From an uncultured Pseudomonas sp. (GTDB lineage: Bacteria; Pseudomonadota; Gammaproteobacteria; Pseudomonadales; Pseudomonadaceae), in the NCBI GenBank assembly GCA_946886875.1, contig CAMPJN010000026.1, forward strand, positions 1-18,104: 18,104 nt of DNA, read 5' to 3'. Below the pieces are notes generated by a model. The model was given only the letters and a program-made list of their open reading frames with translations, made no database searches and had not been told where the DNA came from. How positions within the stretch are numbered: position 1 is the first letter of the stretch; each line of letters begins with the position of its first letter. Of the stretch, positions 1-14,609 are shown piece after piece. A program made the position numbers and the translations under genes.

Positions 1-1013
1 AGTTCACCGTTGTCATCTTGATTGCCGGCGATGATGCTGTTGCGTATTAACAACTCGCCCCAGTTCTCGACAGCGTCTTTGCCCATAGGAAAATCCTGGT
101 TAAGGGTAATGGTGACGTTGGTCAACGTGGCCTTGGAGCTGGTAGCAGAGCTTTCATGGCCATTGGTTAGCGCCGTATTATTGCGGCTGAGCGTGCTGTT
201 GCTGAGCACCAGCGTGCCGCCATCGTTGGTTATGGTGCCGCCTTCGGATTCGGAGTCGTTGTAGTTGCGGTGAAAGGTACTGCTCTCCACAGTGGCATTG
301 CCGGAGTTGTAGATGCCTGAACCCTCGCCCGAATCGCTGAAGTCATAAGCACCGTTTGAATAGAAGTTGCTGCCGCGTACCAGCACGCTGCCGCTGTTAA
401 AGACAGCGCCCCCCTTACCCGTTACAAAAACGCCAAAGGCGGTGTTTTCCTGAAAGCGTGAATCCTCAATACGCAAATTACCGTAGTTGGCAATAGCTCC
501 ACCGTTGGAACCTTCGTTGCGCAGGGCAAATACCTTGCGCAGCTGCAACTGACCTTGATTTGCCACGGCGCCGCCGTTGTACTCGCCGTGACCATCCTCA
601 AGGGTCAGGTTTTCCAGGGTCAGTTTGGCGTTGGCTAATACCTCGAACAGGCGGTCGTTGAGTTCGTAACGGCCCTTGATACGGCTAGTGGTGGTGGACA
701 ACCCGCGAATGCGCAACTCGCCGAGCACATCCAGATCACCAATCCGATTGTCCTGGTCTTCGATGGGATCGCCTTGCGGGTCGAGCAGCGCCGGGCGGGT
801 AAGCTGATAGCTACCCGGCGGCAGCAGGATGGTGCTGGGCCCCGCTGTCTGATTGGCAACCTGTACCGCATCGCGCAGCGAGCAATGCAGGTTGCAACGA
901 CCGTCGTAGCTGTCGGCAGTAGTGGTGACCAACAGGGTGGAGGCGTGGGCGGTGGCGGCGCTGGACAGCAGCAGAGCGCCAGCCAAAGCACGGGGCAGAG
1001 ATAAGGTAAACAT
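1..1013 (-). CDS. Array copy 1: secreted CSLREA/beta-helix protein, 3' end cut by window edge
   Basis: This gene is open at the left edge; 337 residues are visible and the C-terminal domain is missing. The ATG at 1013 is chosen because GGAAGGAG lies seven bases upstream and it begins a signal peptide (MFTLSLPRALAGALLL, cleavage near AHA-STLL). Next come the CNLHCSLRDA motif, an acidic segment ending GDLDVLGELRIRG, and beta-helix rungs with NGGAVANQG, NGGAIANYG, GGAVFNSG and GGTITNDGG turns. The visible part ends just after RNSIIAGN, where siblings have about 110-130 more residues with four conserved cysteines. It has no internal stop in the visible part. It is a predicted exported parallel beta-helix protein of unknown substrate. 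Family assignment is secure; function is not known. Confidence 0.9.
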   Translation of the reverse strand, partial: MFTLSLPRALAGALLLSSAATAHASTLLVTTTADSYDGRCNLHCSLRDAVQVANQTAGPSTILLPPGSYQLTRPALLDPQGDPIEDQDNRIGDLDVLGELRIRGLSTTTSRIKGRYELNDRLFEVLANAKLTLENLTLEDGHGEYNGGAVANQGQLQLRKVFALRNEGSNGGAIANYGNLRIEDSRFQENTAFGVFVTGKGGAVFNSGSVLVRGSNFYSNGAYDFSDSGEGSGIYNSGNATVESSTFHRNYNDSESEGGTITNDGGTLVLSNSTLSRNNTALTNGHESSATSSKATLTNVTITLNQDFPMGKDAVENWGELLIRNSIIAGNQDDNGE

Positions 1014-1090
1014 GGTGTGGCTCCTTCCGGTTTTGCCGAATTGTTCAGGAGCGGACAAACGCAATTCCCGCTTGATTGGGGTATGTCCGC
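1014..1090 (-). promoter_or_regulatory. Leader RNA of copy 1: GC stem plus SD-sequestering hairpin
   Basis: In the transcript, GCGGACA (1090-1084) pairs perfectly with UGUCCGC (1057-1051). Between them lies the conserved CGGGAAUUGCG (1070-1060). Nearer the gene, GCUCCU (1052-1047) can pair with AGGAGC (1025-1020), which contains the Shine-Dalgarno sequence. Inside it, UUCGG pairs with CCGGA around a CAAAA loop. The structure is read by eye; a regulatory role is inferred. Confidence 0.55.
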
Positions 1091-1125
1091 CCTGCCCTTA
1101 CCGCTGAGCCGGGCGGATTACTGCG

Positions 1126-2526
1126 TCAGGGGATCAACTCATAGGCGCCCAAATCGCACACCGCCACGCCGTCGCCGTTACCGTCCTTAGGTCGGCTGAC
1201 GCCGCGCTGGTCCTTGGCGATGCAATTGCCGATGCCGGCGTCGATAGCCGGGCTGCCGGGGAGCAGGACCTGGGCCCAGGTGCTGTTGCTTTGCTCGGTC
1301 GGTCGGGCTGAAAGAACCTTGGTGAAGGTCTGATCAAAGGGGACGAAGTAATCGGCGTTGCAGTTGCCTTCTTCGTCGTTACGCAGCAGGCCAATCGCCT
1401 GATAGCTGAAGTTGGAACCCTGGTTTATACAGTTGGCTCCCCCGCCAGACCAGAGGTCGCGATTTCCGGCGATTACACTGTTACGGATCCGCAAATCACT
1501 CCAGTTCACAACAGCGTAGTAGCCAAAGTCGTCGTTACTGGTGATGGTGACATTATTCAGCGTTGCCTTGGATAGTTGCCCCGGCAAATCGTTGAGCCCG
1601 TTGACCAGCGCCGATACGGAGTTATAGCTAAGGGTGCTGTTGGTCAGTTTCAGCACGCCCCCTCCCTCATTAGTAATCGCTCCTCCGTCAGATAACTTAT
1701 CGACGTAGTTCAAGATAAAAGAACTGCGTTCAACCGTGGCCAGCCCCTTGCTATAGATCGCGGCACCGGAACCAGCATAGGACTCGTCAACGGCGTAGTT
1801 CTCTTGAAAGTGCGTGTCGCTTACCCGCAGGCTGCCACGGTTGTAGATGGCGCCGCCCAAGCCGGAATTGTTGTTCTCCCTAAAACCTTCGGCACCGTTA
1901 AATCGAATGTGCGAGGCCAGCACCGTCAGATCCCCGTAGTTGGCAATAGCACCGCCTCTGCCACTACTGGCCTCTTCATCAAGTGGATCGTCCAGCGGTT
2001 TTCGGGCCCGGGCGATATTTTCCTCCACCCGCATATCGCGCAGCAGCAAATACCCATGGTTCTCCACAGCGCCCCCGTTGTAGGCGCTGTGGCCGTCTTT
2101 CAGGTTCAGGTCTTCCAGAACCAAGCGCGCATTGGGGTGCACCTCGATAAGCCGGTGATGGAGCGTCAGATAGGCATCGGTCGGCCCCTTGATAGTGGTC
2201 ATGTCCCGGCCGGCTCCTTTGATCCGCAACTCGCCAGGGATATCCAGATCGCCGGTCTGATTGCCGTCTTCGTCGATAGGTATGTCATCGCCATCCAGAG
2301 GATCTAGCCGAGAGAGCGTGTAAGTGCCAGAAGGCAGCAGAATGGTGTTCGCTGTGCCGGATTGATTGGCGACCGCCACCGCATCGCGCAGCGAACAATG
2401 CAGGTTACAGACACCGTCATAGGCGTCGGCTTTGACCGTTACCAGCAAGGTGGCGGCCTGGGTTGTGGCGGCGCCAGCCAGCAGCAAAGCGCCAGCCAAA
2501 GTGCGGGGCAGATATGAGGTGAACAT
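1126..2526 (-). CDS. Array copy 2: secreted CSLREA/beta-helix protein
   Basis: 466 residues from the ATG at 2526, which has GGAAGGAG seven bases upstream. A longer in-frame start at 2577 would put the conserved leader inside the gene and bury the signal peptide, so it is rejected. Signal peptide is about residues 1-24 (cut near TQA-ATLL). The CSLREA-type motif has C40 and C44. The acidic segment IDEDGNQTGDLDI follows, then rungs such as NGGAVENHG, GGAIANYG, GGAIYNRG and GGAITNEGG. The C-terminus carries the NC/NC pair, LLPGSPAIDAGIG, KDQRGVSRPKDGNGDGVAVC and DLGAYELIP. Six conserved cysteines fit an exported, disulfide-bonded protein. Both ends are almost identical to copy 3 while the middle differs. 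Function is unknown; a role as adhesin, carbohydrate binder or lyase-like fold is possible but unproven. Confidence 0.93.
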   Translation of the reverse strand: MFTSYLPRTLAGALLLAGAATTQAATLLVTVKADAYDGVCNLHCSLRDAVAVANQSGTANTILLPSGTYTLSRLDPLDGDDIPIDEDGNQTGDLDIPGELRIKGAGRDMTTIKGPTDAYLTLHHRLIEVHPNARLVLEDLNLKDGHSAYNGGAVENHGYLLLRDMRVEENIARARKPLDDPLDEEASSGRGGAIANYGDLTVLASHIRFNGAEGFRENNNSGLGGAIYNRGSLRVSDTHFQENYAVDESYAGSGAAIYSKGLATVERSSFILNYVDKLSDGGAITNEGGGVLKLTNSTLSYNSVSALVNGLNDLPGQLSKATLNNVTITSNDDFGYYAVVNWSDLRIRNSVIAGNRDLWSGGGANCINQGSNFSYQAIGLLRNDEEGNCNADYFVPFDQTFTKVLSARPTEQSNSTWAQVLLPGSPAIDAGIGNCIAKDQRGVSRPKDGNGDGVAVCDLGAYELIP

Positions 2527-2603
2527 GGTGTTGCTCCTTCCGGTTTTGCCGGATCTTTCAGGAGCGGACAAACGCAATTCCCGCTTGGTTGGGGTATGTC
2601 CGC
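2527..2603 (-). promoter_or_regulatory. Leader RNA of copy 2: GC stem plus SD-sequestering hairpin
   Basis: GCGGACA (2603-2597) pairs with UGUCCGC (2570-2564). GCUCCU (2565-2560) pairs with AGGAGC (2538-2533), covering the Shine-Dalgarno sequence, and encloses UCCGG-CAAAA-CCGGA. This is the cleanest example in the array. The same GGGCGGA segment can instead pair with UCCGCCC just after the copy 3 stop codon (2630-2624). Confidence 0.58.
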
Positions 2604-2638
2604 CCAGCCCTCATCGCTGAGCCGGGCGGATTACTGCG

Positions 2639-4012
2639 TCAGGGGATCAGCTCATAGGCGCCCAAATCGCACACCGCCACACCATCGCCATTGCCGTCCT
2701 TAGGTCGGCTGACGCCGCGCTGGTCCTTGGCGATGCAATTGCCGATGCCGGCGTCGATAGCCGGGCTGCCGGGGAGCAGGTTGAGGGTCTGGGTTCCGTT
2801 GCTTTGCAGGGTCGGTGCGGCTGACAGCACAGTGGTAAAGGTTTGTTCGAAGGGGACGAACAAATCGGCCGTGCAGTTGCTCTCCTCATCGTTCATCAGC
2901 AGGCCGGTGGCCTGGTAGCTGAAGTTTGAACCTCGGTTATCGCAGTTGTCTCCGGCTTCGGCGAAGCTACTGGTGTTGCCGGCGATCACGCTGTTGCGAA
3001 TCACTAATTCTCCGCCATTGATAACCGCCGAGTTCAGGAAATAACCGTTTCCCGCGATGGTCACATTGGTCAGGGTGGCGGTGGATCGCCGTTCCGGCAG
3101 CTTGTCGTAAAGACCATTGCTCACAGCCACATCGTTGCGGGTCAGGGTGCTGTTGGTCAGCGTCAGTACTCCGCCTTCATTGGCGACCGCGCCGTCTGCG
3201 ATGTCCCAGCCGAAATTATCAGTGAAGGAGCTGCGCTCGATTGTTGCCTGGTTTCTGTTATAGATCGCATGGCCGCGCCCCTCCACATCGTCGCTGCCAT
3301 TGCCATCGAAGTGGCTGTCATGCACTGTCAGGTTTCCGTCATTAAAGAGTGCGCCGCCCATGGCCGTAGTACTGAGGCCGGTCGACTTAGTGAGGTTCTC
3401 CTCAAATAACGAATCCCGGATGAGCAACTGCCCATAGTTGGCAATGGCGCCGCCGCCGAGTAGGTCGTTATCCTCGCCCGGCATGCCGTGAACGGTAGAG
3501 ATGTTGTTATCCGCGCCTACCTGGCGCAGCGACAAGCGTCCATGATTTTCCACCGCCCCGCCGTTGTAGGCGCTACGGCCATGCTTCAGCGTCAAGCGAT
3601 CCAACCGCACGCGAGCGTCAGGATGCACCTCGACAAGCCGGTGGTTTATTGCATCGTAAGTATCGCTTGGCCCCTTGATGATGCTCTTGCCAAGCCCAGC
3701 ACCTTTGATCAGCAGTTCGCCAACAACATCCAGATCGCCGGTTAGATTGCCGTCCTCTTCGATGGGTATGCCGGCGCTATCCAGTAGATCGAGCCGGGTA
3801 AGGATGTAGGTGCCAGAAGGCAGCAGAATGGTGTTCGCCGTGCCGGACTGGTTGGCGACCGCCACCGCATCGCGCAGCGAGCAGTGCAGGCTGCAGACGC
3901 CGTCGTAAGCATCAGCTTTTACCGTTACCAGCAAGGTGGCCGCTTGCGCGGTGGCTGCGCCGGACAGCAGCAAAGCGCCGGCGAGTGTGCGAGGCAGAGA
4001 CAGGGTAAACAT
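2639..4012 (-). CDS. Array copy 3: secreted CSLREA/beta-helix protein
   Basis: 457 residues from the ATG at 4012, preceded by GGAAGGAG at seven bases. An upstream in-frame start at 4129 is rejected because it reads through the conserved leader. Signal peptide MFTLSLPRTLAGALLL..., cleavage near AQA-ATLL. The motif is CSLHCSLRDA. Acidic segment IEEDGNLTGDLDV. Rungs include NGGAVENHG, GGGAIANYG, GGALFNDG, and a variant GRGHAIYNRNQ. The C-terminus ends DLGAYELIP with DGNGDGVAVC before it. It pairs with copy 2: signal peptide, first ~80 mature residues and last ~45 residues are nearly the same, but the helix middle is clearly different, which suggests exchange or selection confined to the middle. 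Role unknown. Confidence 0.93.
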   Translation of the reverse strand: MFTLSLPRTLAGALLLSGAATAQAATLLVTVKADAYDGVCSLHCSLRDAVAVANQSGTANTILLPSGTYILTRLDLLDSAGIPIEEDGNLTGDLDVVGELLIKGAGLGKSIIKGPSDTYDAINHRLVEVHPDARVRLDRLTLKHGRSAYNGGAVENHGRLSLRQVGADNNISTVHGMPGEDNDLLGGGAIANYGQLLIRDSLFEENLTKSTGLSTTAMGGALFNDGNLTVHDSHFDGNGSDDVEGRGHAIYNRNQATIERSSFTDNFGWDIADGAVANEGGVLTLTNSTLTRNDVAVSNGLYDKLPERRSTATLTNVTIAGNGYFLNSAVINGGELVIRNSVIAGNTSSFAEAGDNCDNRGSNFSYQATGLLMNDEESNCTADLFVPFEQTFTTVLSAAPTLQSNGTQTLNLLPGSPAIDAGIGNCIAKDQRGVSRPKDGNGDGVAVCDLGAYELIP

Positions 4013-4093
4013 GATGTAGCTCCTTCCGGTTTTGCCCGGATTTTGTTTTAGGAGCGGACAAACGCACTTCCCGCCGGGTTGGGTCATACCCGC
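4013..4093 (-). promoter_or_regulatory. Leader RNA of copy 3: GC stem with wobble pairs plus SD-sequestering hairpin
   Basis: GCGGGUA (4093-4087) pairs with UGUCCGC (4060-4054) through two G-U wobbles; the same changes are mismatches on the plus strand. GCUCCU (4055-4050) pairs with AGGAGC (4024-4019) and encloses UCCGG-GCAAAA-CCGGA. The structure fits the sense transcript of copy 3. Confidence 0.55.
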
Positions 4094-4128
4094 CCTACCC
4101 TGACCACGAAGCCGGGCGGGGTACATCA

Positions 4129-5505
4129 CTAAGGCTTCAATTCATAGGCGCCGAGGTCGCACACCGCCAGGCCATCGCCGTTGCCGTCCTGCGGGCGGGA
4201 GACGCCACGCTGGTCGTGGTCGATGCAGGTCCCGATGCCCGTATCCACCGCCGGGCTACCGGGTAGCAGGGGGTGGACTGCCACCCTTTCGTTTTCGTTT
4301 TGCAACTGTTCGCTCAGAACCCGGGTAAAGGTCTCAGCGAGCGGCACGTAGAAATCGCCGGTACAGTCGTTCGGCTCGTCGTTGATCAGCAGACCGACAG
4401 CCTGGTAGCGGTAGTTACTGCCCACGTTGGTGCAATTATTGGGTCTCTCCGTGCCCTGGATGATGCTCCGGTTGCCGGCAATAATGCTGTTGTAGATCCG
4501 CAGGCTGCCTCCGTTGACGACGGCTGGATAGCAATAATAGTAACGCTCGCAAATATCCCGCGTGATGGTGACGTTCGTCAGGATTGCCTTGGACTGCTCG
4601 GGCATTTCGTCGTAGAAGCCGTTGGTCAGGCTGAACCTGTTCCCGCTCAGCGTGCTGTTGAGCAGGTACAAGGTGCCACCTTCATTGGTGATGGCGCCGC
4701 CTTCGGCCACATGAGGATGATCGAGAATGCTGCTGCGTTCGATTCTGGCCAAACCGGTGCTGTAGATCGCCGAGCCTGCAACGAAACCAGAATTTTCCTG
4801 AAAGAGACTGTCTTCTATCAGCATGCTGCCATTGCTGTAGATGGCGCCGCCATAGCCACTTCGGTGATCATGATAAAGCCTGTGAGCCTTGTTCGATCGG
4901 AACTGCGATTTCGTCACGATCAGTTTCCCGTAGTTCGCGATGCCGCCTCCGCGACCGTCATGGAAGCGGTCGCCGCCTATCAAACCGGGCTCCCATGGGG
5001 TGACGTTATTGTCCTTTACCAGCACTTCACGTAGCTCCAGCGCCCCGTGGTTTTCCACCGCCCCGCCATTTTTCACGGAGTTGCCGCCTCGCAGGGTCAG
5101 ACGCTCCAGCGTTAGCTGGGCGCCCGCTCGCACCTCGAACAGGCGGTCGTTGATCAGGCCGCTGATCACACTCTCTGCGAGGCTTGTGCCACTGATCAGC
5201 AGTTTTCCCGTAACGTCCAGATCGCCACGGCGGTTACGGTCTTCCTCGTTGGGGTTGCCGTCTTCATCCAGCGGGTTTTCCCGGCTCAATTCATAAGTAC
5301 CGTCGAGCAGGACGATACGATCCGTCCCCGATCTACGGTTGGCGGCCGTGACGGCATCACGAAGCGAACAATGGCTATTGCAGGTGCCGTCGTAGCTATC
5401 CTCGGTTGTGGTGACCCTCAGGGTTGCGGCTTGGGCGCTGACGGCGCTGGCCAGCAGGATGCCGAAGACTAGGGTAGGTACGGCGTAGGGTTTGAGAGTA
5501 GACAT
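4129..5505 (-). CDS. Array copy 4: secreted CSLREA/beta-helix protein
   Basis: 458 residues from the ATG at 5505, with AAAGGA eight bases upstream. This start gives a signal peptide (MSTLKPYAVPTLVFGILLASA, cut near AQA-ATLR) that is unlike the PRxLAGALLL type of its neighbours. Motif CNSHCSLRDA, then the acidic stretch DEDGNPNEEDRNRRGDLDV, beta-helix rungs (NGGAVENHG, GGGIANYG, GGAIYSNG, GGAITNEGG) and the end DLGAYELKP. It has an extra cysteine pair (CERYYYC) in the rung after LTNVTITRD. Copy 5 has a matching pair, and the two share GLINDRL, WEP and DRFHDGRGGG, so they form a sister pair. Exported; function unknown. Confidence 0.93.
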   Translation of the reverse strand: MSTLKPYAVPTLVFGILLASAVSAQAATLRVTTTEDSYDGTCNSHCSLRDAVTAANRRSGTDRIVLLDGTYELSRENPLDEDGNPNEEDRNRRGDLDVTGKLLISGTSLAESVISGLINDRLFEVRAGAQLTLERLTLRGGNSVKNGGAVENHGALELREVLVKDNNVTPWEPGLIGGDRFHDGRGGGIANYGKLIVTKSQFRSNKAHRLYHDHRSGYGGAIYSNGSMLIEDSLFQENSGFVAGSAIYSTGLARIERSSILDHPHVAEGGAITNEGGTLYLLNSTLSGNRFSLTNGFYDEMPEQSKAILTNVTITRDICERYYYCYPAVVNGGSLRIYNSIIAGNRSIIQGTERPNNCTNVGSNYRYQAVGLLINDEPNDCTGDFYVPLAETFTRVLSEQLQNENERVAVHPLLPGSPAVDTGIGTCIDHDQRGVSRPQDGNGDGLAVCDLGAYELKP

Positions 5506-5568
5506 GTTTGGCGTCCTTTCTGATAAGGCGAGCCGGACTACCTTCGCTCGCATGGAGTGAAGCCCGGC
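5506..5568 (-). promoter_or_regulatory. Leader RNA of copy 4: diverged sequence, stem kept
   Basis: The sequence differs strongly from the other leaders, yet GCCGGGCU (5568-5561) pairs over 8 bp with AGUCCGGC (5539-5532) with one G-U wobble. A CCUU-AUCAGA-AAGG hairpin covers the Shine-Dalgarno sequence just before the ATG. Same architecture with different bases. Confidence 0.45.
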
Positions 5569-5596
5569 CGACTTCAATAACCGGGCAGGTACGTCA

Positions 5597-6990
5597 TTAC
5601 TCAGCTAATTCGTAGGCCCCCAGGTCGCAGACCGCTACGCCATCGCCGTTGCCATCCTGCGGGCGGCGAACGCCACGTTGGTCATGGGCGGTGCACTTCG
5701 CTATTCCAGCATCCACCGCGGGGCTACCCGGCAACAGTCGATGGAAGTCGGTACTGCCGTTGTCAACGGCCAGCTGTCCGGAGAGAACTTGAGTGAAGGT
5801 CTCATCGAACTCCACGTAGTAATCGCCCGTGCAATTATCCATCTCACTGTTGGTGAGTAGGCCGTTGGTCCGATAACGGTAGTAGCGGCCGACATTCACA
5901 CAGTTGAGAACCAAATCCCACTCCTGATCCGGACCTCCGTCGCCATTGCCGGCAATGATGCTATTGCGAATGCGCAGGTCGCCACCATTGATTACGGCCT
6001 CAGGGCAGCCAAAGATATCGCAGCTGCCACGCGTAATTGTAACGTTGCTCAAAGTCGCCTTGGATTGACCGGCTGCTTCGTCATAGAAGCCGTTGGTCAG
6101 ACTCCCCGAGTTACCGCTTAGTGTGCTGTTGAGCAATTCAAGGACGCCGCCGTCATTGGTGATGGCGCCCCCTTCGGACCATTCCGAGGCCCCATGATCG
6201 ATCACTGCGCTGCGTTCGATCCTCGCCTGGCCGCTATTGAAGATTGCTGCGCCCGCACCGCCATCGGTGTAGTTGGTTACCCAGTTGTAATGAAAAAAAC
6301 TGTCCTGTATCCGCAGCTCTCCCTTGCTGTAGATGGCGCCACCCAAGCCGCTGTAAAGGTCGTAGTAAAGACCTAGAGCGCCGTTGCCTTGAAACCTGGA
6401 AGCGATCACCGTCAGTTTTCCATAACTGGCGATCCCCCCCCTCGACCATCATGAAAGCGGTCGCCTAGTCCGCCGTGGGGCTCCCAGGCGAAAACGCGGT
6501 TATTGATCACCAGCACATCGCGCACCTCCAGGGTTCCGTGGTTTTCCACGGCACCGCCGTTCTGCACGGAGCGGCCGTTGCCCAGCGTCATATGCTCCAG
6601 GGTCAATTGGGCATCCGGGCGTACCTCGATCAAACGATCATTGATCAAGCCATAGAGCGTGGTACGGAACATTCCATCACCACTGATCACCAGCCTGTCG
6701 GTAACGTCCAGATCGCCCAGCGCGTTGTTGTCTTCATCGATGGGTTGCCGGTTCCCATCGAGTGGATTTTTCAGGCTCAGGTCATAGCTACCTTCGGGTA
6801 GCACAATGCGGTCGCCACCCGACCTGCGATTGGCCGCCGCCACCGCATCCCGCAGTGAGCAGTGCTTGTCGCAGATGCCGTCGTAGACGTCTTGAGGCAC
6901 TGTGACCGAAAAGGTCGCGGCCTGAGTGACGGTGGCTCCAATCAGTAATACAGCGCCCGCCAAGGCGCGAGGCAGGGGTATAGGGAACAT
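5597..6990 (-). pseudogene. Array copy 5: CSLREA/beta-helix gene split by a frameshift in a G8 tract (possible phase-variable gene)
   Basis: The start at 6990 (MFPIPLPRALAGAVLL, GGAAGGAG upstream) gives a normal signal peptide and the CDKHCSLRDA motif. The frame then stops at 6412-6414 after DGRGGGSPVMEN. The remaining 270 codons continue in another frame from 6409 to a normal end, DLGAYELAE at 5597. The break is a run of eight G (plus-strand C, 6434-6441). With nine G the reading would be DGRGGGIASYG, matching the GGGIANYG turn of copy 4, and the gene would encode 464 residues, the family's normal size. Both halves keep the family pattern, so inactivation is recent, reversible by slippage, or a sequencing error. 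It shares an extra cysteine pair (CDIFGC) with copy 4. Confidence 0.85.
6434..6441 (-). repeat. Homopolymer G8 tract inside copy 5
   Basis: Eight consecutive G on the coding strand encode the Gly-Gly-Gly turn of one beta-helix rung. At the same turn copies 4 and 6 use mixed glycine codons, so only copy 5 has a slippage-prone run. One added base restores the full reading frame. Tracts of this kind drive phase variation of surface proteins in other bacteria; that role here is inference. Confidence 0.8.
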
Positions 6991-7065
6991 GGTGGCTCCT
7001 TCCGGTTGCCCGGTTCCAGCGGTGGTTGCGGACGAGCATGATTCCCGCAGTTGGGTTAAATCCGC
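6991..7065 (-). promoter_or_regulatory. Leader RNA of copy 5
   Basis: GCGGAU (7065-7060) pairs with GUCCGC (7033-7028) with one terminal U-G wobble. CCGG-GCAA-CCGG (7013-7002) forms a short hairpin with a GCAA loop touching the GGAAGGAG. The outer anti-SD arm seen in leaders 1-3 is absent. Confidence 0.42.
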
Positions 7066-7093
7066 CTGACCGTTCCGGCCGGGCGACTCTTCA

Positions 7094-8464
7094 CTAGGGA
7101 ATCAACTCAAAAGCACCGAGGTCGCATACCGCCACGCCATCGTCGTTGCCGTCCTGCGGACGGGCGACGCCGCGTTGGTCGTGGGCGATGCAGGCACCGA
7201 TGCCCGCATCTATCGCCGAGCTGCCGGGGCGTAATGCGTGGAGCCAGTGGGTTTCGTCGGGTTTGCTCAAAGTCGGGAACAGCACCTTGGTGTAGGTATC
7301 TTCGAAGGACACGAAGTAATCGCCCGTGCAGTTGCTCGGCTCGTCGCCGATCAGCAACCCGGTTGCCTGGTAGCTGTAGTTGCCGAAGTTGAAGCAGTTG
7401 GCCGGCGCTTGCTTGATCGAGAAGTCGTAGTTGCCGGCGATGATGCTGTTGTAGATGATCAGGTCGCCGCCATTGGCCACCGCGTATCTGTCCTCGCCGA
7501 AGTGCCCGGTGATGGTCACATTGGTCAGGGTGACTTGGGCCAACGCCGCGGGCTGCCGACGGATATTGACCAACCCGCCCAGGTAATTCTGGCTCAGGGT
7601 GCTGTTGGTCAACGCCAGCTCGCCTTCATCGTTGAATATCGCCGCATCGGAAAACTCCGAACCGCCGTGCCGCAGAAAGCTACTGCGCTCCACCATGACC
7701 GTGCCCTGGAGGTTGTACAGGGCGCCGCCATCACCAGCGTCGCCATGATCCAGCGCCGCGTTGGCGAGGAAAATACTGTCGCGAATGACAACCGTGCCGA
7801 GATGATTGAACAACCCCCCGCCTCGCCCTGTATTGACATTCATCTGATGCCCGGTGGCGGTGTTGTGCTGCAGGCGCGAGGACAGCAGCGTCAGCTCGCC
7901 GTAGTTGGCGATGCCGCCGCCCTGGGCGGTGGTGTAGCGCTCGGCCGGTGGCAACGCGAATTGTGGATAGAGCGCCTGGTTGTGTTGTACCAGCACCTCA
8001 CGCAGGGTCAGTTGCCCATGATTCACCACAGCGCCGCCGTTATGCACGGTGTTGCCCTTTTCCAGACTCAGTTTCTCCAGCCGCAAGCTGGCGCCGGGGC
8101 GTACCTCGAACAGACGATCATTGAACTGGCCCTGGATAATGGTCTTGGCGGTATCCAGGCCGCGGATACGCAACTCACCGAGTACATCCAGGTCGCCGAA
8201 CTGATGATCAGCATCGTCGACCGGCAAACCATTGGCATCCAAGGCTACTGGGCGATTCAGCACGTAGGTGCCGGGCGGTAACACTATGGTGTCGGCATTT
8301 GGCGCCTGGTTGGCCCTGGCGACCGCATCGCGTAACGAACAGTGCAGGTTGCAGACGCCGTCATAGCTGTCCGCGCTGGTGGTGACCAACAGGATGTCGG
8401 CATGGGCGCTGGCGGCACTCGACAGTAGCAGCGCACCCGCCAGGGTACGGGTTGAGGGGAACAT
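7094..8464 (-). CDS. Array copy 6: secreted CSLREA/beta-helix protein
   Basis: 456 residues from the ATG at 8464, preceded by GGAAGGAG. The signal peptide MFPSTRTLAGALLLSSAASAHA is followed by DILLVTTSADSYDG and CNLHCSLRDA. The acidic loop is DANGLPVDDADHQFGDLDV, differing from the DEDxN form of its neighbours. Rungs include NGGAVVNHG, GGGIANYG, GGGLFNHLG and GGALYNLQG, and the end is DLGAFELIP after DGNDDGVAVC. No close sister copy is present in the window, so it is one of the more diverged members. A long open frame on the plus strand opposite it (7238-8281) is a codon-usage shadow. Exported beta-helix protein of unknown role. Confidence 0.93.
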   Translation of the reverse strand: MFPSTRTLAGALLLSSAASAHADILLVTTSADSYDGVCNLHCSLRDAVARANQAPNADTIVLPPGTYVLNRPVALDANGLPVDDADHQFGDLDVLGELRIRGLDTAKTIIQGQFNDRLFEVRPGASLRLEKLSLEKGNTVHNGGAVVNHGQLTLREVLVQHNQALYPQFALPPAERYTTAQGGGIANYGELTLLSSRLQHNTATGHQMNVNTGRGGGLFNHLGTVVIRDSIFLANAALDHGDAGDGGALYNLQGTVMVERSSFLRHGGSEFSDAAIFNDEGELALTNSTLSQNYLGGLVNIRRQPAALAQVTLTNVTITGHFGEDRYAVANGGDLIIYNSIIAGNYDFSIKQAPANCFNFGNYSYQATGLLIGDEPSNCTGDYFVSFEDTYTKVLFPTLSKPDETHWLHALRPGSSAIDAGIGACIAHDQRGVARPQDGNDDGVAVCDLGAFELIP

Positions 8465-8537
8465 GGGCGGCTCCTTCCGGTCGTTCCGGAATCGCTATGC
8501 GGACAGGCGCAATTCCCGCTTGGTTGGGGATGCCCGC
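8465..8537 (-). promoter_or_regulatory. Leader RNA of copy 6
   Basis: GCGGGCA (8537-8531) pairs with UGUCCGC (8505-8499) with one G-U wobble. UUCCGG-AACGA-CCGGAA is a perfect 6-bp hairpin (8491-8475) overlapping the GG of GGAAGGAG. The conserved CGGGAAUUGCG lies between the outer arms. Confidence 0.52.
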
Positions 8538-8563
8538 CCTGCCCCTTAGCGTGGGCAAGGCGG
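8534..8563 (-). other. Strong hairpin directly after the copy 7 stop codon
   Basis: CCGCCUUGCCC and GGGCAGGGCGG pair over 11 bp with one U-G wobble and an 8-base loop, six bases after the copy 7 stop. No U-run follows, so it does not look like a classical intrinsic terminator. It shares bases with the copy 6 leader stem, so the two structures exclude each other. Confidence 0.5.
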
Positions 8564-8569
8564 TGTACA

Positions 8570-9988
8570 TCACTGCACAGTCGGTTCGAAAGCGCCCAGT
8601 TCGAAGGCGCCGAGGTCGCATACCGCCACGTCGTCGCCATCGCCGTCCTGCGGCCGCGGGGCGCCGCGCTGATCGTGGTCGGGGCAATCGCCGATGGCGG
8701 CATCGATCGCCGGGCTGCCGGAGAGCAGATCGTGGGTCCAGGTTTGCTTGTGCTGGGTGGGCGTGGGCGAAAGAACCTGAGTAAAAGTCGCAGCGCCGCT
8801 GACGAACAGGTTAGCGCTGCAATTGCTCTGTTCGTCGTTGCGCAACAAGCCGACAGCCTGGTAGCTGTAGTGATCGCCCACGTTCATGCAGTTGCTGGGC
8901 ACTGCCAAGGGGTTATCCAGATCAGCGTAGTAGTCGTAATTGCCGGCAATGATGCTGTTGTGTATCAGTAATTCGCCCCCATTTAGCACAGCACCAGGCT
9001 CACCGACATCACCGTTTGTATTGCGGGTTATGGTGACGTTGGTCAGAGTGGTCTTCGAACGCTGTACTCCAGGGCTGTCTGCACGGCCGTTGCTCAATGC
9101 CTTACTCCAGTTGCCACTCAGGGTACTGTTGCCGATAGTCAGCTCTCCGCCCTCGTTGGCGACGATGCCATCCTGGGTATATTCCGCGTTCAAATTCTCG
9201 GAAAAATAACTGCCCCATATTTCTGCACGGCCTTCGTTATAGATAGCCCCACCAGGGCCAACCAGCGAGAAGGTTTCGGTGCGGTTACGCAGAAAACTGC
9301 TGTCACGCACTAGCATGCTACCGGAGTTGTAGATGGCACCGCCGTAAGCATAAAAATCAGCATTCGCATTGTTGCGCTCGAAGTGCGAGGACAGCACCAC
9401 CAGGCTCGCGTAATTGGCGATAGCGCCGCCGTAGCCGCGTTCAGGCGCATCCGATAGATTGTTGTGGGTCATGTTGTCCAGCGCGCGCACCTTACGTAGT
9501 AGTGCATGGCCATGATTCTCCAGTGCACCACCATTGCCGGCGCTGTAACTGCCCTTCAGGGTCAGATTGTCCAGTACCAGGCGCGCGCCGGGCCGTACTT
9601 CGACAAGTCGGTGGCGCAATCTGAGTACGTCCACACCGAGGCCATCGATGCTGCTCTTGGTGATGCCGGCACCTTTTATCAACAGGTCGCCGCGGATATC
9701 CAGATCACCGCTCAGGTTGTTGTCTTCATCAATGGGAAGGTGCGGATCGTTTTGATCCAGTACGTCGAGTCTGCTGAGGCCATAGTTACCAGACGGCAAC
9801 AGAATAATGCTCGCACCAGATGCTTGATTGGCAGCAGTCACGGCATCGCGCAGCGAGCAATGTCGATTGCAGACGCCGTCATAGCTGTCTGCGGTGGTGG
9901 TAACCAGCAGTGTGGCGGCTTGAGCGCCGACGGCAGCGCACAGCAACAATGCGCAGGTGAACGTACGAGGCAGGATTAAGGTAAACAT
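8570..9988 (-). CDS. Array copy 7: secreted CSLREA/beta-helix protein with extended C-terminus
   Basis: 472 residues from the ATG at 9988, the longest complete copy, with AAGGAG seven bases upstream. Signal peptide MFTLILPRTFTCALLLCAAVGAQA, then CNRHCSLRDA. The acidic loop is IDEDNNLSGDLDI. Rungs include NGGALENHG, GGAIANYA, GGAIYNSG and GGAIYNEG. The protein ends GAFELGAFEPTVQ: the usual GAFEL is followed by a second GAFE from an imperfect 15-bp tandem repeat (8584-8613). Copy 8 shares this unusual tail. It uses IDAAIGDCPDHDQRGAPRP and DGDGDDVAVC where others have IDAGIG and DGNGDGVAVC. Exported, function unknown. Confidence 0.93.
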   Translation of the reverse strand: MFTLILPRTFTCALLLCAAVGAQAATLLVTTTADSYDGVCNRHCSLRDAVTAANQASGASIILLPSGNYGLSRLDVLDQNDPHLPIDEDNNLSGDLDIRGDLLIKGAGITKSSIDGLGVDVLRLRHRLVEVRPGARLVLDNLTLKGSYSAGNGGALENHGHALLRKVRALDNMTHNNLSDAPERGYGGAIANYASLVVLSSHFERNNANADFYAYGGAIYNSGSMLVRDSSFLRNRTETFSLVGPGGAIYNEGRAEIWGSYFSENLNAEYTQDGIVANEGGELTIGNSTLSGNWSKALSNGRADSPGVQRSKTTLTNVTITRNTNGDVGEPGAVLNGGELLIHNSIIAGNYDYYADLDNPLAVPSNCMNVGDHYSYQAVGLLRNDEQSNCSANLFVSGAATFTQVLSPTPTQHKQTWTHDLLSGSPAIDAAIGDCPDHDQRGAPRPQDGDGDDVAVCDLGAFELGAFEPTVQ

Positions 9989-10068
9989 GGGAATGCTCCT
10001 TCCGATTGATCGGACTCCTTTTATCGCGGACAGGCGCAATTCCCGCTTGGTTGGGTGTTAATGCCCGC
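9989..10068 (-). promoter_or_regulatory. Leader RNA of copy 7: compensatory change in SD hairpin
   Basis: GCGGGCA (10068-10062) pairs with UGUCCGC (10032-10026). The SD-proximal hairpin is UCCGA-UCAA-UCGGA (10014-10001), where other leaders have UCCGG and CCGGA. Both arms changed together, which preserves pairing. Confidence 0.52.
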
Positions 10069-10101
10069 CCTGCCCCTTAGCGTGGGCCCAGGCGGTGTAC
10101 A

Positions 10102-11499
10102 TCACTGCACAGTCGGTTCGATAGCGCCCAGTTCGAAGGCGCCGAGGTCGCATACCGCCACGCCATCGTCATTGCCGTCCTGCGGACGCGGGGCGCCGCG
10201 CTGGTCGTGGTCGGGGCAATCGCCGATGGCGGCGTCGATCGCCGGGCTACCGGCGAGCAGAGCGTGAGTCCAGTTGGTGCTGTTGTGCTGGGTTGGCGTG
10301 CGCGATAGCACCTGGGTAAAGGTCTGCTTGAGAGTCACGTAGAAGTCGGCGCGGCAGTTGCTCTGCTCGTCGTTACGCAGCAGGCCGATGGCCTGGTAGC
10401 TGAAGCTGTCACCGAGATTGGCGCAATTGGCTACCTCATAACTAGTTACTGCGCCGTTATCGATGAGCGGAGAGATGTTGCCGGCGATCAGGCTATTGCG
10501 AATCAGCAGTTCGCTCCAGTTCAACAGCACCTCGCGGGATGCAAGCTCGCTAGCCGGCCTGGGCGGATTACGGGTGATGGTGACATGGTTGAGAATGGCC
10601 TTGGAGTGCCTGGAAGGATCATCGCCACCACCATTGTTCAGTACCCCACCCCAATTGGCGTTCAAGGTACTGTTGCTCAGCGTGAGCACGCCACCTTCAT
10701 TGACAATCGCGCCGCCTGAAACGCCATAGGCGGCATTGCGGGAAAGATAGCTACGCTCGATTCGCGCGCTGCCGGTGTTGTAGAGCACCGCGCCTTCGGC
10801 GCTGCTGGAGTTGTCGCGAAACAGGCTGTCACGCACCAATAGGTTGCCGACATTGTAAATGGCGCCGCCGAGGCTGCGATTGCTGCCGGCGTAGATATTT
10901 GCCACGTTGGCCCTGAACGTCGAGCCCAGCACCGTCAGCGTGCCGTAGTTGGCGATAGCACCGCCGTATGCACGGCCGCGGGAATCAGGTACTACCGGCT
11001 CGGTGGCCCAGTTGTTCGCCAATTGCACTTCGCGCAGCAGCAGTTGCCCCTGATTCTTCAACGCACCGCCCTCGAAGAGCGTGGTTCCCCCTTCGAGTGT
11101 CAGGTTTTCCAGGGTTAGTTGCGCCGTGGGCGCGACCTCTATCAGGCGATCGCCGGCGGCGCGTCTGATACGGCTGAGGCCGGTGGTAGAACCGATGATA
11201 TGCAACTCGCCGAGCACATCCAGATCGCCGATCTGGTTGTCCTGATCCTCAATGACGCGCTGTTGCTCGTCGAGCGCTGAGGGCTGGATGAGCCCGAGGT
11301 TCCCGGGCGGCAATTGGATGGTGCTGGGGCCGGGGGTCTGATTTGCGACGGTTACTGCGTCGCGCAGCGAGCAATGCGCATTGCACTGGCCGTCGTAACT
11401 GTCCTGCCCAGTGGTGACCAGCAGCGTGTTGGCATAGGCACCGACAGGCAGTAATAAGGCTGCAAAAAATACGCTGCATAACGGGGAACGGATGGACAT
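10102..11499 (-). CDS. Array copy 8: secreted CSLREA/beta-helix protein with extended C-terminus
   Basis: 465 residues from the ATG at 11499 with AAGGAG seven bases upstream. The signal peptide is distinct: MSIRSPLCSVFFAALLLPVGAYA, cut before NTLLVTT. CNAHCSLRDA follows. The loop after it is EQQRVIEDQDNQIGDLDV, close to that of copy 1. Rungs include EGGALKNQG, GGAIANYG, GGAIYNVG and GGAIVNEGG. The tail GAFELGAIEPTVQ matches copy 7, and the two share the 3' ~150 bp and spacer sequence although their N-terminal halves and leaders differ. This mosaic pattern points to segmental exchange between copies. Exported, function unknown. Confidence 0.93.
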   Translation of the reverse strand: MSIRSPLCSVFFAALLLPVGAYANTLLVTTGQDSYDGQCNAHCSLRDAVTVANQTPGPSTIQLPPGNLGLIQPSALDEQQRVIEDQDNQIGDLDVLGELHIIGSTTGLSRIRRAAGDRLIEVAPTAQLTLENLTLEGGTTLFEGGALKNQGQLLLREVQLANNWATEPVVPDSRGRAYGGAIANYGTLTVLGSTFRANVANIYAGSNRSLGGAIYNVGNLLVRDSLFRDNSSSAEGAVLYNTGSARIERSYLSRNAAYGVSGGAIVNEGGVLTLSNSTLNANWGGVLNNGGGDDPSRHSKAILNHVTITRNPPRPASELASREVLLNWSELLIRNSLIAGNISPLIDNGAVTSYEVANCANLGDSFSYQAIGLLRNDEQSNCRADFYVTLKQTFTQVLSRTPTQHNSTNWTHALLAGSPAIDAAIGDCPDHDQRGAPRPQDGNDDGVAVCDLGAFELGAIEPTVQ

Positions 11500-11573
11500 G
11501 GTGCAACTCCTTGCGTGTAAGTGGATTCCTTTCGCGGCGGAGCATGGCAACCGCACGGGTTTGGCCATGCCCC
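11500..11573 (-). promoter_or_regulatory. Leader RNA of copy 8 (B-type element)
   Basis: GGGGCAUGGC (11573-11564) pairs over 10 bp with GCCAUGCUCC (11548-11539) with one G-U wobble. Next to the gene, GCAA-GGAG-UUGC would place part of the Shine-Dalgarno sequence in a small loop. The sequence type differs from most other leaders but position and stem are the same. The same element recurs after copy 10. Confidence 0.45.
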
Positions 11574-11591
11574 CCCGTTGCTCGGTCGTGT

Positions 11592-12971
11592 TTATGGCTT
11601 CAGCTCATAGGCGCCCAGGTCGCATACCGCCACCCCGTCGCCGTTGCCGTCTTTAGGGCGGGAAACGCCGCGCTGATCCTTACTGACGCAGCTGCCAACG
11701 CCGGCATCCAGCGCCGGGCTGCCGGGTAGCAAGGCGTAGAAAGAGGTCTTGCCATCGCTACTCAGGGTGCGTGACAACACCTGGGTAAAGGTCTGCTCCA
11801 GCGGCACGAACAGGTCGGCGTCGCAGTTGCTCGACTCGTCGTTACGCAGCAGGCCGATGGCCTCGTAGCTGTAGTGGTCGCCGAAGTTTTCGCAGTTCAA
11901 CGGCTCTCCGTCCCAAAAGCCGTTGCCGGCGATCAGGCTATTGCGGATGCGCAATTGGCCCCAATTCATTACCGCTACCCTACCGCCTAGATCAAAGATG
12001 CTGTCGGTGATGGTGACATTGGTCAGGGTCGCGGATGAGCGGATCGCTGGTGGGCTGTCGTTACGGCCATTGGTTATCGCGCCGTTAAGGTTAAAGCCGA
12101 AGGTGCTGTTGGTTACCGTCAGCACACCGCCTTCATTGGTGATGGCGCCGCCTTTGCCGCTTTCGCCAACGTAATTACCGACAAAAGAGCTGGTTTCGAT
12201 CCTGGCGCTGGCCGTGTTGTAAATGGCCGTGCCGGCGCCGGCAAGGGACCAGCCGCTGAGGCCGTTGCTGTCGAAATGGCTACCGCGCACCTGCAGGTTG
12301 CCGCTGTTGAAAATGGCGCCTCCCAGCGGATTGCCATTAACGTCATTGGTGGCGTGGTTTTGGATGAAAGACGAAGCTGATACCAGCAGATCGCCATAGT
12401 TGGCGATGGCGCCGCCGCGCCCGTCATCCAAATCGCCCACATAGTCCAATTCGCTGGCGTAGTTGCCCCGCGCCTGCACATCATGCAGCAGCAAGTTGCC
12501 ATGGTTTTCCACCGCGCCGCCATTGCCGGCACTATCTCCATTGGTCAGTGACAGGCTTTTGAGGATCAGGCGGGCTCCGGGACGAACTTCAAATAGCCGA
12601 TGTTCGTAACTGAACGGATCGGGATTCACGCCGTCGACGATGCTCTTGCCGATACCGGCGCCCTGAATCAACACTTCGCCGGTGACATCCAGATCGCCAG
12701 TCAGGTTGTCGTCTTCGTCGATGGGCTGGTCGTCAGCGTCGCGCAGGTTGCGCCGAGTAAGCGTATAGGTGCCCGATGGCAACAGAATGATACTGCTGCC
12801 GCTCGCTTGGTTGGCCACGGCCACGGCATCGCGCAGCGAGCAATGCTGATTGCACTGGCCATCGTAGCTATCGGTTTTGGTTGTGACCAACAACGTGGCC
12901 GCATGTACGCCCGTGGCGCCGGATAGCAGCAAGGCGCCGAGCAGGATTTTGGGCCGGGATAAAGTGCGCAT
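11592..12971 (-). CDS. Array copy 9: secreted CSLREA/beta-helix protein
   Basis: 459 residues from the ATG at 12971, with GAAGGAG upstream. A start at 13112 is open but reads through the leader and is rejected. Signal peptide MRTLSRPKILLGALLLSGATGVHA, then CNQHCSLRDA and IDEDDNLTGDLDV. Rungs include NGGAVENHG, GGAIANYG, GGAIFNSG and GGAITNEGG. The end is DLGAYELKP after KDQRGVSRPKDGNGDGVAVC. It is the closest relative of copy 10: the signal peptide core and the last ~75 residues are the same, while the middle rungs differ by many substitutions. Six conserved cysteines are present. Exported, function unknown. Confidence 0.93.
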   Translation of the reverse strand: MRTLSRPKILLGALLLSGATGVHAATLLVTTKTDSYDGQCNQHCSLRDAVAVANQASGSSIILLPSGTYTLTRRNLRDADDQPIDEDDNLTGDLDVTGEVLIQGAGIGKSIVDGVNPDPFSYEHRLFEVRPGARLILKSLSLTNGDSAGNGGAVENHGNLLLHDVQARGNYASELDYVGDLDDGRGGAIANYGDLLVSASSFIQNHATNDVNGNPLGGAIFNSGNLQVRGSHFDSNGLSGWSLAGAGTAIYNTASARIETSSFVGNYVGESGKGGAITNEGGVLTVTNSTFGFNLNGAITNGRNDSPPAIRSSATLTNVTITDSIFDLGGRVAVMNWGQLRIRNSLIAGNGFWDGEPLNCENFGDHYSYEAIGLLRNDESSNCDADLFVPLEQTFTQVLSRTLSSDGKTSFYALLPGSPALDAGVGSCVSKDQRGVSRPKDGNGDGVAVCDLGAYELKP

Positions 12972-13064
12972 GATGTAACTCCTTCTAACGATCCGGACAG
13001 CTCCGGGCTCCTTCGGGGCGGACTGCGCAATTCCCGCGATTTCGGGTTGCCGCCTCGGCACATG
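12972..13064 (-). promoter_or_regulatory. Leader RNA of copy 9 (A-type element)
   Basis: GGCGG (13064-13060) pairs with CCGCC (13021-13017); CGGGAAUUGCG is conserved between them. Closer to the gene CCGGA-GCUG-UCCGG forms a 5-bp hairpin. The SD-overlapping hairpin of the other leaders is weak here (UCC with GGA only). Confidence 0.4.
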
Positions 13065-13098
13065 AACATACCGGGCGGGTAACGAGGTTCCTTTCACG

Positions 13099-13137
13099 GC
13101 GGAGCATGGCAACCGTACGGGGTTTGGCCATGTCCGC
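13099..13137 (-). repeat. B-type stem element after copy 10
   Basis: GCGGA plus CAUGGC pair with GCCAUG plus UCCGC, 11 bp with one bulged base. It is the second copy of the element that forms the leader of copy 8 and sits here because of the tandem duplication. Confidence 0.55.
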
Positions 13138-13154
13138 CCGTTGCTAGGTCGTGT

Positions 13155-14525
13155 TTATGGCTTCAGTTCATAGGCACCCAGGTCGCACACCGCCACGCCG
13201 TCGCCGTTGCCGTCTTTAGGGCGGGAAACGCCGCGCTGATCCTTGCTGACGCAGCTGCCAACGCCGGCATCCAGCGCCGGGCTGCCGGGTAGCAAGGCGT
13301 AGAAAGAGGTCTTGCCATCGCTACTCAGGGTGCGTGACAACACCTGGGTAAAGGTCTGCTCCAGCGGCACGAACAGGTCGGCGTCGCAGTTGCTCGACTC
13401 GTCGTTACGCAGCAGGCCGATGGCCTGGTAGCTGTAGTGGTCGCCGAAGTTTTGGCAATTGACTGGCTCATCGCCGTACTGCTCGCGATTGCCGGCAATC
13501 AGGCTATTGCGAATCAGCAACTGTCCCCAATTCATCACCGCATAGCGGTTGGAAAACTCAGCTATACCATCGACGATGGTGACATTGGTCAGGGTGGCGG
13601 ATGAGCGGATCGCCGGCGGATTGTCGTTACGGCCATTGGTTATCGCCCCTTCGCGGTTGCCGCTGAAGGTGCTGTTGGTAACTGTCAGCACGCCGCCTTC
13701 ATTGGTGATCGCGCCGCCTTCCGCCAGTTCGCCAGCATTGTTGCCGACAAAGGAGCTGGTTTCGACCCTGGCGTTGAGCGTGCTGTAAATGGCGGTGCCG
13801 GCGCCGGAAAGAGGCAAGCCGCCAACGCCGTTGTTGTCAAAATGGCTGCTGCGCACCTGTAGCCTGCCGCTATTGAAAATGGCCCCTCCCAGCGGATTGC
13901 TGCTCTCTTTCACGGCGCCGTTACCTTCAAACTTCGAAGCCGACACCAGCAGATCGCCATAGTTGGCGATGGCACCGCCGCGCCCGCCATCCACATCACC
14001 CCATTCGCGGGTCAGATTGTTCAGCGCTTGCACGCCATACAGCAGCAAGCTGCCATGGTTTTCCACCGCCCCACCGTTGTCAGCACTACGCCCGGTGCTC
14101 AGAGACAGGCTTTTGAGGATCAGGCGAGCCCCAGGCCGAATCTCGAATAGTCGGTGTTCAACCACGAACAGATCGGCGTTCACGCCCTCGACGATGCTCT
14201 TGCCGATACCGGCGCCCTGAATCAACACCTCGCCGGTAACATCCAGATCGCCAATCAGGTTGTCATCTTCGTCGATGGGTTGGTTGTCATCGTCGCGCAG
14301 GTTGCGCTGAGTGAGCTTATAAGTGCCCGATGGCAGCAGAATGATGTCGGCATTCGCCGACTGGTTGGCCACAGCCACGGCATCGCGCAGCGAGCAATGC
14401 AGGTTGCACTGGCCATCGTAGCTATCGGTTTTGGTTGTGACCAACAACGTGGCCGCATGTACGCCCGTGGCGCCGGATAGTAGCAAGGCACCGAGCAGGA
14501 TTTTAGGCAGGGGTAAAGTACGCAT
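13155..14525 (-). CDS. Array copy 10: secreted CSLREA/beta-helix protein, first gene of the array
   Basis: 456 residues from the ATG at 14525, with GGAAGGAG seven bases upstream. Signal peptide MRTLPLPKILLGALLLSGATGVHA, then CNLHCSLRDA and IDEDDNLIGDLDV. Rungs NGGAVENHG, GGAIANYG, GGAIFNSG and GGAITNEGG. C-terminus with NC/NC, LLPGSPALDAGVGSC and DLGAYELKP. As the most upstream gene of a same-strand array with no U-run terminators seen between copies, it may be the first gene of a long operon; each copy could also have its own promoter. It is the recent duplicate of copy 9. Exported beta-helix protein of unknown role. Confidence 0.93.
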   Translation of the reverse strand: MRTLPLPKILLGALLLSGATGVHAATLLVTTKTDSYDGQCNLHCSLRDAVAVANQSANADIILLPSGTYKLTQRNLRDDDNQPIDEDDNLIGDLDVTGEVLIQGAGIGKSIVEGVNADLFVVEHRLFEIRPGARLILKSLSLSTGRSADNGGAVENHGSLLLYGVQALNNLTREWGDVDGGRGGAIANYGDLLVSASKFEGNGAVKESSNPLGGAIFNSGRLQVRSSHFDNNGVGGLPLSGAGTAIYSTLNARVETSSFVGNNAGELAEGGAITNEGGVLTVTNSTFSGNREGAITNGRNDNPPAIRSSATLTNVTIVDGIAEFSNRYAVMNWGQLLIRNSLIAGNREQYGDEPVNCQNFGDHYSYQAIGLLRNDESSNCDADLFVPLEQTFTQVLSRTLSSDGKTSFYALLPGSPALDAGVGSCVSKDQRGVSRPKDGNGDGVAVCDLGAYELKP

Positions 14526-14609
14526 GGTATGGCTCCTTCCAATGGCCCGGATGGCTCCGGGCTCCTTCGGGGCGGACTGCGCAATTCCCGCGATTTGGGG
14601 TTACCGCCC
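14526..14609 (-). promoter_or_regulatory. Leader RNA of copy 10 (A-type element)
   Basis: GGGCGG (14609-14604) pairs with CCGCCC (14575-14570), with CGGGAAUUGCG between the arms. CCCGGA-GCCA-UCCGGG (14561-14546) is a perfect 6-bp hairpin. UCCGG-GCCA-UUGGA with two G-U pairs is an alternative that reaches the Shine-Dalgarno sequence. The two small hairpins share an arm, so they compete. Confidence 0.5.

Follow-up and report, generated by a model that had tools for sequence, protein, structure and literature searches.

What do the leaders of a tandem gene array share, and does the shared part act as RNA? The question is raised by an 18,104-nucleotide (nt) stretch of DNA from an uncultured Pseudomonas sp. 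(contig CAMPJN010000026.1; the window hereafter), whose minus strand carries ten paralogous genes, one of them cut at the window's edge and one broken at about position 6410. A repeated, partly conserved spacer does precede the array genes on this strand, as the original prediction had it. Its proposal of a cis-acting RNA element in the spacer is supported by the finding of a gene-family-specific element across the Pseudomonadaceae, and its remark that no described RNA family has this form agrees with a search of the window against Rfam 15, which gave no covariance-model match at the gathering score and none at E<=2. The stem that it described (termed S here) was rejected as the structure common to relatives, whose common part is a smaller element, H, that uses the 3' arm of S. 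It is plausible, if short of probable, that H is a cis-acting RNA element, conserved in leaders of the Pseudomonas CSLREA/choice-of-anchor-Q gene family, through which translation is controlled by a Shine-Dalgarno (SD) switch.

A conserved element upstream of CSLREA genes

H emerged as the common element in the upstream sequences of 86 genes from related loci (numbered below with the prefix L). It reads GCGGG-AAUUGCGnnnG-UCCGC in the window and approximately GCGGA-AGCnnnGnCGUn-UCCGC elsewhere, starts mostly 44-66 nt before the start codon, and has a loop of 10, 11 or 12 nt among 35 members. Its sequence is solidly conserved, columns 8, 9, 26 and 27 being invariant in 47 rows; in the window lineage it has drifted to GCGGG and a 10- or 11-nt loop. 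R1, a covariance model of H, derives from 28 sequences. It matches eight of the ten window leaders, five of which were members of the seed:

1045..1077, minus strand: H in leader 1, seed member; GCGGG at 1071-1067, UCCGC at 1055-1051; R1 28.1 bits, E 0.01
2558..2590, minus strand: H in leader 2, non-seed; R1 27.9 bits, E 0.011
4048..4080, minus strand: H in leader 3, seed member; R1 26.8 bits, E 0.019
7022..7054, minus strand: H in leader 5, seed member; R1 22.5 bits, E 0.15
8493..8525, minus strand: H in leader 6, non-seed; R1 18.8 bits, E 0.89, weak alone, with the same GCGGGAATTGCG block
10020..10052, minus strand: H in leader 7, seed member; R1 24.8 bits, E 0.049
13012..13043, minus strand: H in leader 9, non-seed; R1 20.8 bits, E 0.35
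14566..14597, minus strand: H in leader 10, before the array's first gene, seed member; R1 22.0 bits, E 0.19

Computation shows H to be conserved and nearly restricted to the CSLREA gene family. When six genomes were scanned with R1 at E<=1, all 19 matches lay upstream of CSLREA genes (compared by eye), 16 of the 19 being seed members. A scan of 298 Pseudomonadaceae genomes, run with stricter filters and scoring only the best candidates, placed 14 of 16 matches at E<=0.1 upstream of CSLREA/choice-of-anchor-Q genes; the non-seed matches, which include near relatives of seed members, did so in 7 of 9 cases. CSLREA genes were themselves found at E<=1e-30 in only 24 of these 298 genomes. Among 244 genomes of the order, five of six R1 matches were upstream of CSLREA genes, all five already known. 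Finally, 59 loci (724 kb) picked for holding CSLREA genes yielded 53 of 55 matches at E<=1 upstream of such genes (a script counted 52; the other is L032:7939, its duplicate leader having been removed) and 25 of 27 if non-seed matches alone are counted, with a median of 27 nt from the end of the match to the start codon. The top-scoring match (38.4 bits) is a non-seed sequence. Spacers between two CSLREA genes contained H in 17 of 18 cases when at least 100 nt long and in none of 10 when shorter, related arrays being counted separately. The off-family matches from the genome scans fall inside a phage-type open reading frame (ORF; L137), in repetitive-looking sequence with no convincing gene (L138) and antisense to a TonB-receptor-like start (L197). 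Those in the 59 loci, L049:2375 and L024:7352, inflate the pair counts of both H and the GC[GGAA]GC mini-hairpin considered below.

As a base-paired helix H is supported, if thinly. Its five pairs form in 96.7% of cells, a value reached by none of 500 shuffles, and L016 (GCGAA/UUCGC) carries an inner compensatory change. In the four inner pairs the 32 cluster representatives hold seven G-U cells and no A-C cell, a pattern that reading of the sense RNA would predict; the rows with G-U at the innermost pair, 11 out of 11, belong to the lineage of the window and to its kin, L001 and L143, which tempers the argument for RNA over DNA.

Complementarity to the Shine-Dalgarno sequence

Computation shows a closer complementarity of the 3' half of H to its own leader's SD than to those of other leaders. 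In the test, whose idea came from reading folds, SD regions were swapped between leaders: own leaders gave -11.26 kcal/mol against -9.04 for swapped ones, and none of 20,000 permutations was as low (n=25 representatives). At four clustering levels, with n=26, 21, 9 and 6, the corresponding numbers were 0, 7, 414 and 170 permutations of 20,000, and when the 8 strongest of 27 leaders were dropped the count was 77 of 10,000. Sliding a 12-nt piece along the leader (18 offsets, 14-18 leaders) gave a signal only at offsets -8 (0/3000), -4 (1/3000) and 0 (60/3000) from the 3' arm. Clear SD helices are found, for example, in L010, L012, L015/L026, L140, L166, L086, L016+6498 and window leaders 1-3. 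They are made with different letters, GGCUGUAUCC:GGAGAUACAGCC in L026, UUUCUCCG:CGGAGAAA in L010 and GUCUCC:GGAGAC in L140 and L166, and those listed look GC-rich. The positions in the window, with the helices taken from the minimum free energy (MFE) folds of leaders 1-3, are:

1020..1026, minus strand: SD of leader 1, AAGGAGC, preceded by an SD-adjacent hairpin (CGGCAAAACCG)
1047..1052, minus strand: GCUCCU of leader 1, overlapping the end of the H 3' arm and pairing with the SD AGGAGC (1020-1025)
2560-2565, minus strand: GCUCCU counterpart in leader 2
4050-4055, minus strand: GCUCCU counterpart in leader 3

These features suggest how a switch could work. The 5' arm of H, GCGGA(A)G, resembles an SD and can pair with the UCC-containing 3' arm; the 3' half (about the last eight loop nucleotides plus UCC) is complementary as well to the real SD of the same leader. 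During transcription the small hairpin H would form first and hold the anti-SD half, so that ribosomes could load. If a protein, a small RNA or heat then opened H or sequestered its 5' arm, the released half would pair with the SD and translation would stop; an RsmA-type protein at the GGA is a possible trigger. In leaders 1-3 of the window lineage the SD pairing is in a shifted register (GCUCCU:AGGAGC), and S, the outer stem, would compete for the 3' arm of H. From sequence we infer the order of folding, the switching itself, its trigger and which state is ON. The scheme would account for the letters of both arms: the 3' arm has to match the SD (GGA) and must therefore hold UCC, the 5' arm has to match the 3' arm and must therefore hold GGA, and a single competition, SD-mimic arm versus SD, would thus explain why both are kept. 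Enforcing H raised mean SD openness from 0.26 to 0.37, with higher values in 18 of 26 cases.

A number of observations weigh against an SD switch. H is seldom the lowest-energy fold. Enforcing it in a 125-nt context costs 2.6-11.6 kcal/mol in the eight H-bearing window leaders, where its pairing probability is at most 0.08, and from 0 (L001, L007, L049) up to 15.3 kcal/mol in relatives; when folding is begun at the S 5' arm, S is cheaper than H in leaders 1, 2, 5, 7, 9 and 10. The outermost H pair fails in 8 of 47 rows. Two-sided changes are thin: of six cells, two come from off-family chance rows, and the four left (all A-U, three at the outermost pair and one inside) represent about three events. 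The SD test does not amount to an independent sample because the hypothesis was formed on the same leaders (L169, L175 and L185 are later additions that were pooled with them), and a version of the pairing test in fixed register was not significant (1889/20,000 for n=26 and 1487/20,000 for n=22). The anti-SD helix is poor in L021, L030-L032, L002+9486 and window leaders 9 and 10. In shuffled leaders the SD is only slightly more open than in the real ones (0.324 vs 0.274, p=0.028, n=31), and leaders without H gave p=0.074 (n=25) in the same comparison with shuffles. R1, furthermore, matches 51 of the 87 distinct Pseudomonas CSLREA leaders and leaves 36 unmatched. Promoter-like sites were significant in two of the 32 representatives, upstream of H in one (L030) and downstream of it in the other (L015). 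In the window (900-15100) such sites numbered 4, against 5.6 in shuffles, with none on the minus strand.

Some further features of the leaders were noted in passing. A second small hairpin lies directly before AAGGAG in window leaders 1, 2, 3, 5, 6 and 7; it takes the form CCGG-loop-CCGG or nearly so (CCGA/UCGG in leader 7, CCGG-GAAA-CCGG in L001), the pairing being kept as letters change. In L030 a TTGACT-17-TAAGAA promoter stands directly upstream of H, and in L030-L032 and L130 the H 3' half has a further possible pairing partner shortly downstream (CGUUAUC:GAUAACG in L030+6451). By eye, L022, L025, L029, L034, L044 and L174 form a second leader class that has in common approximately GAACnnAGCAGUCCCCGU, and in which GCAG(U)CC may pair with GG(U/C)CUGC at the SD.

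Alternative explanations for H

H could be a static hairpin of the 5' untranslated region, serving in stability, spacing or as a standby site, with no switching and with its SD complementarity a mere by-product. The conservation of the element, its nearness to the start codon (a median of 27 nt), an ensemble SD openness that differs little from that of shuffles and the outcome of the fixed-register test are all in line with such a role. We nevertheless regard it as unlikely: a static hairpin would not be expected to show complementarity to its own leader that is localised to the 3' arm and robust to the dropping of eight leaders, and H is not the stable fold in most leaders.

Rather more unlikely is that an RsmA/CsrA-type protein binds the 5' arm and blocks ribosomes by bridging its GGA and the GGA of the SD. 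In 31 of the 32 cluster representatives H has a GGA among its first 8 nt, and the window lineage could loop it out as GCG[GGAAUUG]CGY, a fold whose three pairs are intact in each of 10 rows, with both G-C and G-U occurring at two of the pairs. RsmA/CsrA proteins prefer the flank A-N-GGA, however, and that of H is GC-GGA. Family-wide, the mini-hairpin GC[GGAA]GC shows no covariation (76.5% paired, with 399 of 500 shuffles as high), one member has GAA with a matching UUC, and the conserved 3' arm is left unexplained.

It also seems improbable that H is a DNA operator, that is, an imperfect inverted repeat CGGA-N10-12-TCCG read by a transcription regulator of the gene family. Its near-palindromic form, strongly conserved letters and near specificity to one gene family would suit an operator. 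The spacing of the half-sites is not fixed, however, the loop measuring 10-12 nt; among the departures at the inner pairs there are G-U but no A-C cells; and the complementarity to the SD finds no explanation.

The outer stem S

Leaders 4 and 8, which lack H, are listed here together with S as it occurs in leader 1:

1051..1090, minus strand: stem S in leader 1 (GCGGACA 1090-1084, UGUCCGC 1057-1051); 7 of 7 positions pair; 3' arm common with H
5506..5596, minus strand: leader 4, without H and with the S stem GCCGGGCU/AGUCCGGC; no R1 match; 8 of 8 positions pair
11500..11591, minus strand: leader 8, without H and with the hairpin GCAUGGC/GCCAUGC; no R1 match; stem equals MFE

The arms quoted by the original prediction for leaders 1-7 were all found and, set by hand, pair at 49 of 50 positions, six of the 49 being G-U in the sense RNA; GCGGACA/UGUCCGC of leader 1 lies between about 77 and 38 nt ahead of the start codon. 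The intervening CGGGAATTGCG, described as held in most copies, is exact in six of ten leaders. The assertion that the stem stands before each of the ten genes was not confirmed in that form: S is well formed in leaders 1-7, but only 4 of its 7 positions pair in leaders 9 and 10, and leader 8 has another hairpin. As for selection on wobble pairing, the G-U pairs exist but selection is weakly shown, changes being one-sided except in leader 4 because GUCCGC of the 3' arm is invariant outside that leader. In leader 4 both arms are altered (an extra C-G pair; an inner U-A for A-U) and pairing is kept, which favours the stem.

An alignment of ten leaders, eight from the window (leaders 4 and 8 left out) and two from L001, gave S 82.1% paired cells and no two-sided change; this percentage is too low because the alignment has the 5' arm of rows 9, 10 and L001b in the wrong register. 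The block GCGGG...GUCCGC is invariant in all ten rows. In the 125-nt context, enforcing S costs 6.1-10.3 kcal/mol in eight of ten leaders (6.1 above the MFE in leader 1) and 0-0.2 in leaders 4 and 8 (-40.0 enforced versus an MFE of -40.2 in leader 4). When folding is begun at its 5' arm, S comes to within 2 kcal/mol of the MFE in seven of ten leaders (1, 2, 4, 5, 8, 9 and 10).

Could it then be S that functions in the window lineage, either by itself or in competition with H? The near-complete pairing in leaders 1-7, the altered but still pairing arms of leader 4 and the energies just given, at or near the MFE in the H-less leaders 4 and 8, speak for it. We consider it distinctly improbable nonetheless, given the one-sidedness of the changes elsewhere, the breaks in leaders 9 and 10 (4/7), a mismatch in the nearest relative (L001a) and the failure to notice an equivalent outside the lineage, where relatives were viewed by eye only. 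When upstream sequence is included, moreover, the 5' arm pairs instead with a hairpin of the CCGCCC...GGGCGG type; such hairpins follow several stop codons in the window spacers, overlapping the S 5' arm and competing with it.

A dispersed repeat similar to repetitive extragenic palindromic (REP) sequences and hitch-hiking with gene duplication is highly improbable and is disfavoured by the genome scans: H is a GC-rich imperfect palindrome in a tandem array, and a REP-like palindrome (GTAGGGTGCGCC/GGCGCACCCTAC) does lie elsewhere in the window, between two genes at 17637-17667, but R1 matches occur almost only upstream of the CSLREA family rather than at unrelated sites, and H is absent from 10 of 10 short spacers. 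No paired core sites of an integron attC were noticed on viewing by eye. To return to the SD switch, of the functions originally offered for the spacer RNA, switch-like control acting through SD access is the best fit; a protein-binding leader is possible, and none of the observations, which were not aimed at it, speaks for the processing of a long operon mRNA.

The gene array and its products

The array genes, all assigned from ORFs with start assignments, are separated by spacers of 91-183 nt:

1-1013, minus strand: array paralogue, cut by the window edge
1126..2526, minus strand: array gene for a CSLREA/choice-of-anchor-Q beta-helix protein
2639-4012, minus strand: array paralogue
4129-5505, minus strand: array paralogue
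5597-6990, minus strand: fifth array gene, apparently broken, in two frames near 6410 (ORFs 6412-6990 and 5597-6409)
7094-8464, minus strand: array paralogue
8570-9988, minus strand: array paralogue
10102-11499, minus strand: array paralogue
11592-12971, minus strand: array paralogue
13155-14525, minus strand: array paralogue, first gene of the array

The whole genes encode proteins of 456-472 amino acids with a signal-peptide-like start. Three paralogues were scanned and matched NCBIfam NF041518 (choice_anch_Q; E 6.9e-14) at the C-terminus and TIGR04214 (CSLREA; E 6e-4, below the family cut-off). Close relatives that bear names are mainly from Pseudomonas, some genomes of which hold up to a dozen paralogous beta-helix genes; the best-scoring genome locus for the window, L001, belongs to a Pseudomonas metagenome-assembled genome. 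A search of plasmid DNA for similarity to leader 1 gave no match, and among viral contigs 83 stretches fitted the search pattern, none of which encodes a relative. Elsewhere in the window, at 15955-17574 on the plus strand, lies a gene for a 539-amino-acid protein that has a FKHEWGHSILHFF motif (HExxH) and looks metallopeptidase-like by eye; it gave no Pfam or NCBIfam match at E<=0.01.

The candidate type II secretion substrates listed for Acinetobacter include a CSLREA domain protein (PMC9245377). The titles and opening abstract lines of the open-access literature found on CSLREA, rhombotarget and choice-of-anchor Q mention no leader of this kind, and almost nothing there concerns the control of CSLREA/choice-of-anchor-Q genes. 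Choice-of-anchor Q combined with Pseudomonas returned nothing in the open-access literature, and structured RNA motifs in Pseudomonas returned only a review on Clostridioides riboswitches. A bolder proposal, which we advance tentatively and with more doubt than the SD switch itself, is that H defines an undescribed leader RNA family in which a single anti-SD strand is contested by the true SD and an SD-mimic hairpin arm. Such a family would so far be confined to Pseudomonas CSLREA/choice-of-anchor-Q genes and, in some tandem arrays of paralogues, repeated before most genes; the members of a repertoire of probably secreted proteins might in this way be translated or silenced one by one. If true, a family-specific leader setting the translation of each paralogue would offer a handle on the expression of the repertoire, and H would add an RNA element absent from Rfam.

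Comparison with known systems

Among nine relatives' loci searched against Rfam at E<=1 the only family found was Guanidine-II, with no match on H. This riboswitch (mini-ykkC) match, at L107:770-822 in Pseudomonas indica, scores 32.3 bits where the cut-off is 32, and an H element follows about 680 nt further downstream.

Three known kinds of leader invite comparison. Leaders with the ops element of RfaH, or those acted upon by NusG paralogues, have like H a short conserved hairpin early in the leader, and GCGGAAGC resembles ops (GCGGTAGC); unlike them, H adjoins the SD and is complementary to it. Leaders bound by RsmA/CsrA share with H a GGA in the leader and another in the SD. Unlike in those leaders, the GGA of H is part of a conserved stem arm, has a flank other than A-N-GGA and faces a conserved UCC partner.

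The third kind comprises the SD-sequestering riboswitches and RNA thermometers. A ROSE-like RNA thermometer precedes rhlA of Pseudomonas aeruginosa. H differs from SD-sequestering switches in having no aptamer-sized ligand domain, in its GC-rich helices and in the short SD-like 5' arm that competes; it differs also in being tied to one gene family, where it stands before 8 of 10 array genes, and in having no Rfam match. An anti-SD strand specific to its own SD, as such switches possess, was seen in H by the swap test, while the fixed-register version did not reach significance. In common with them H has its place in a 5' leader, an anti-SD strand and, as proposed here, an alternative fold that would free the SD.

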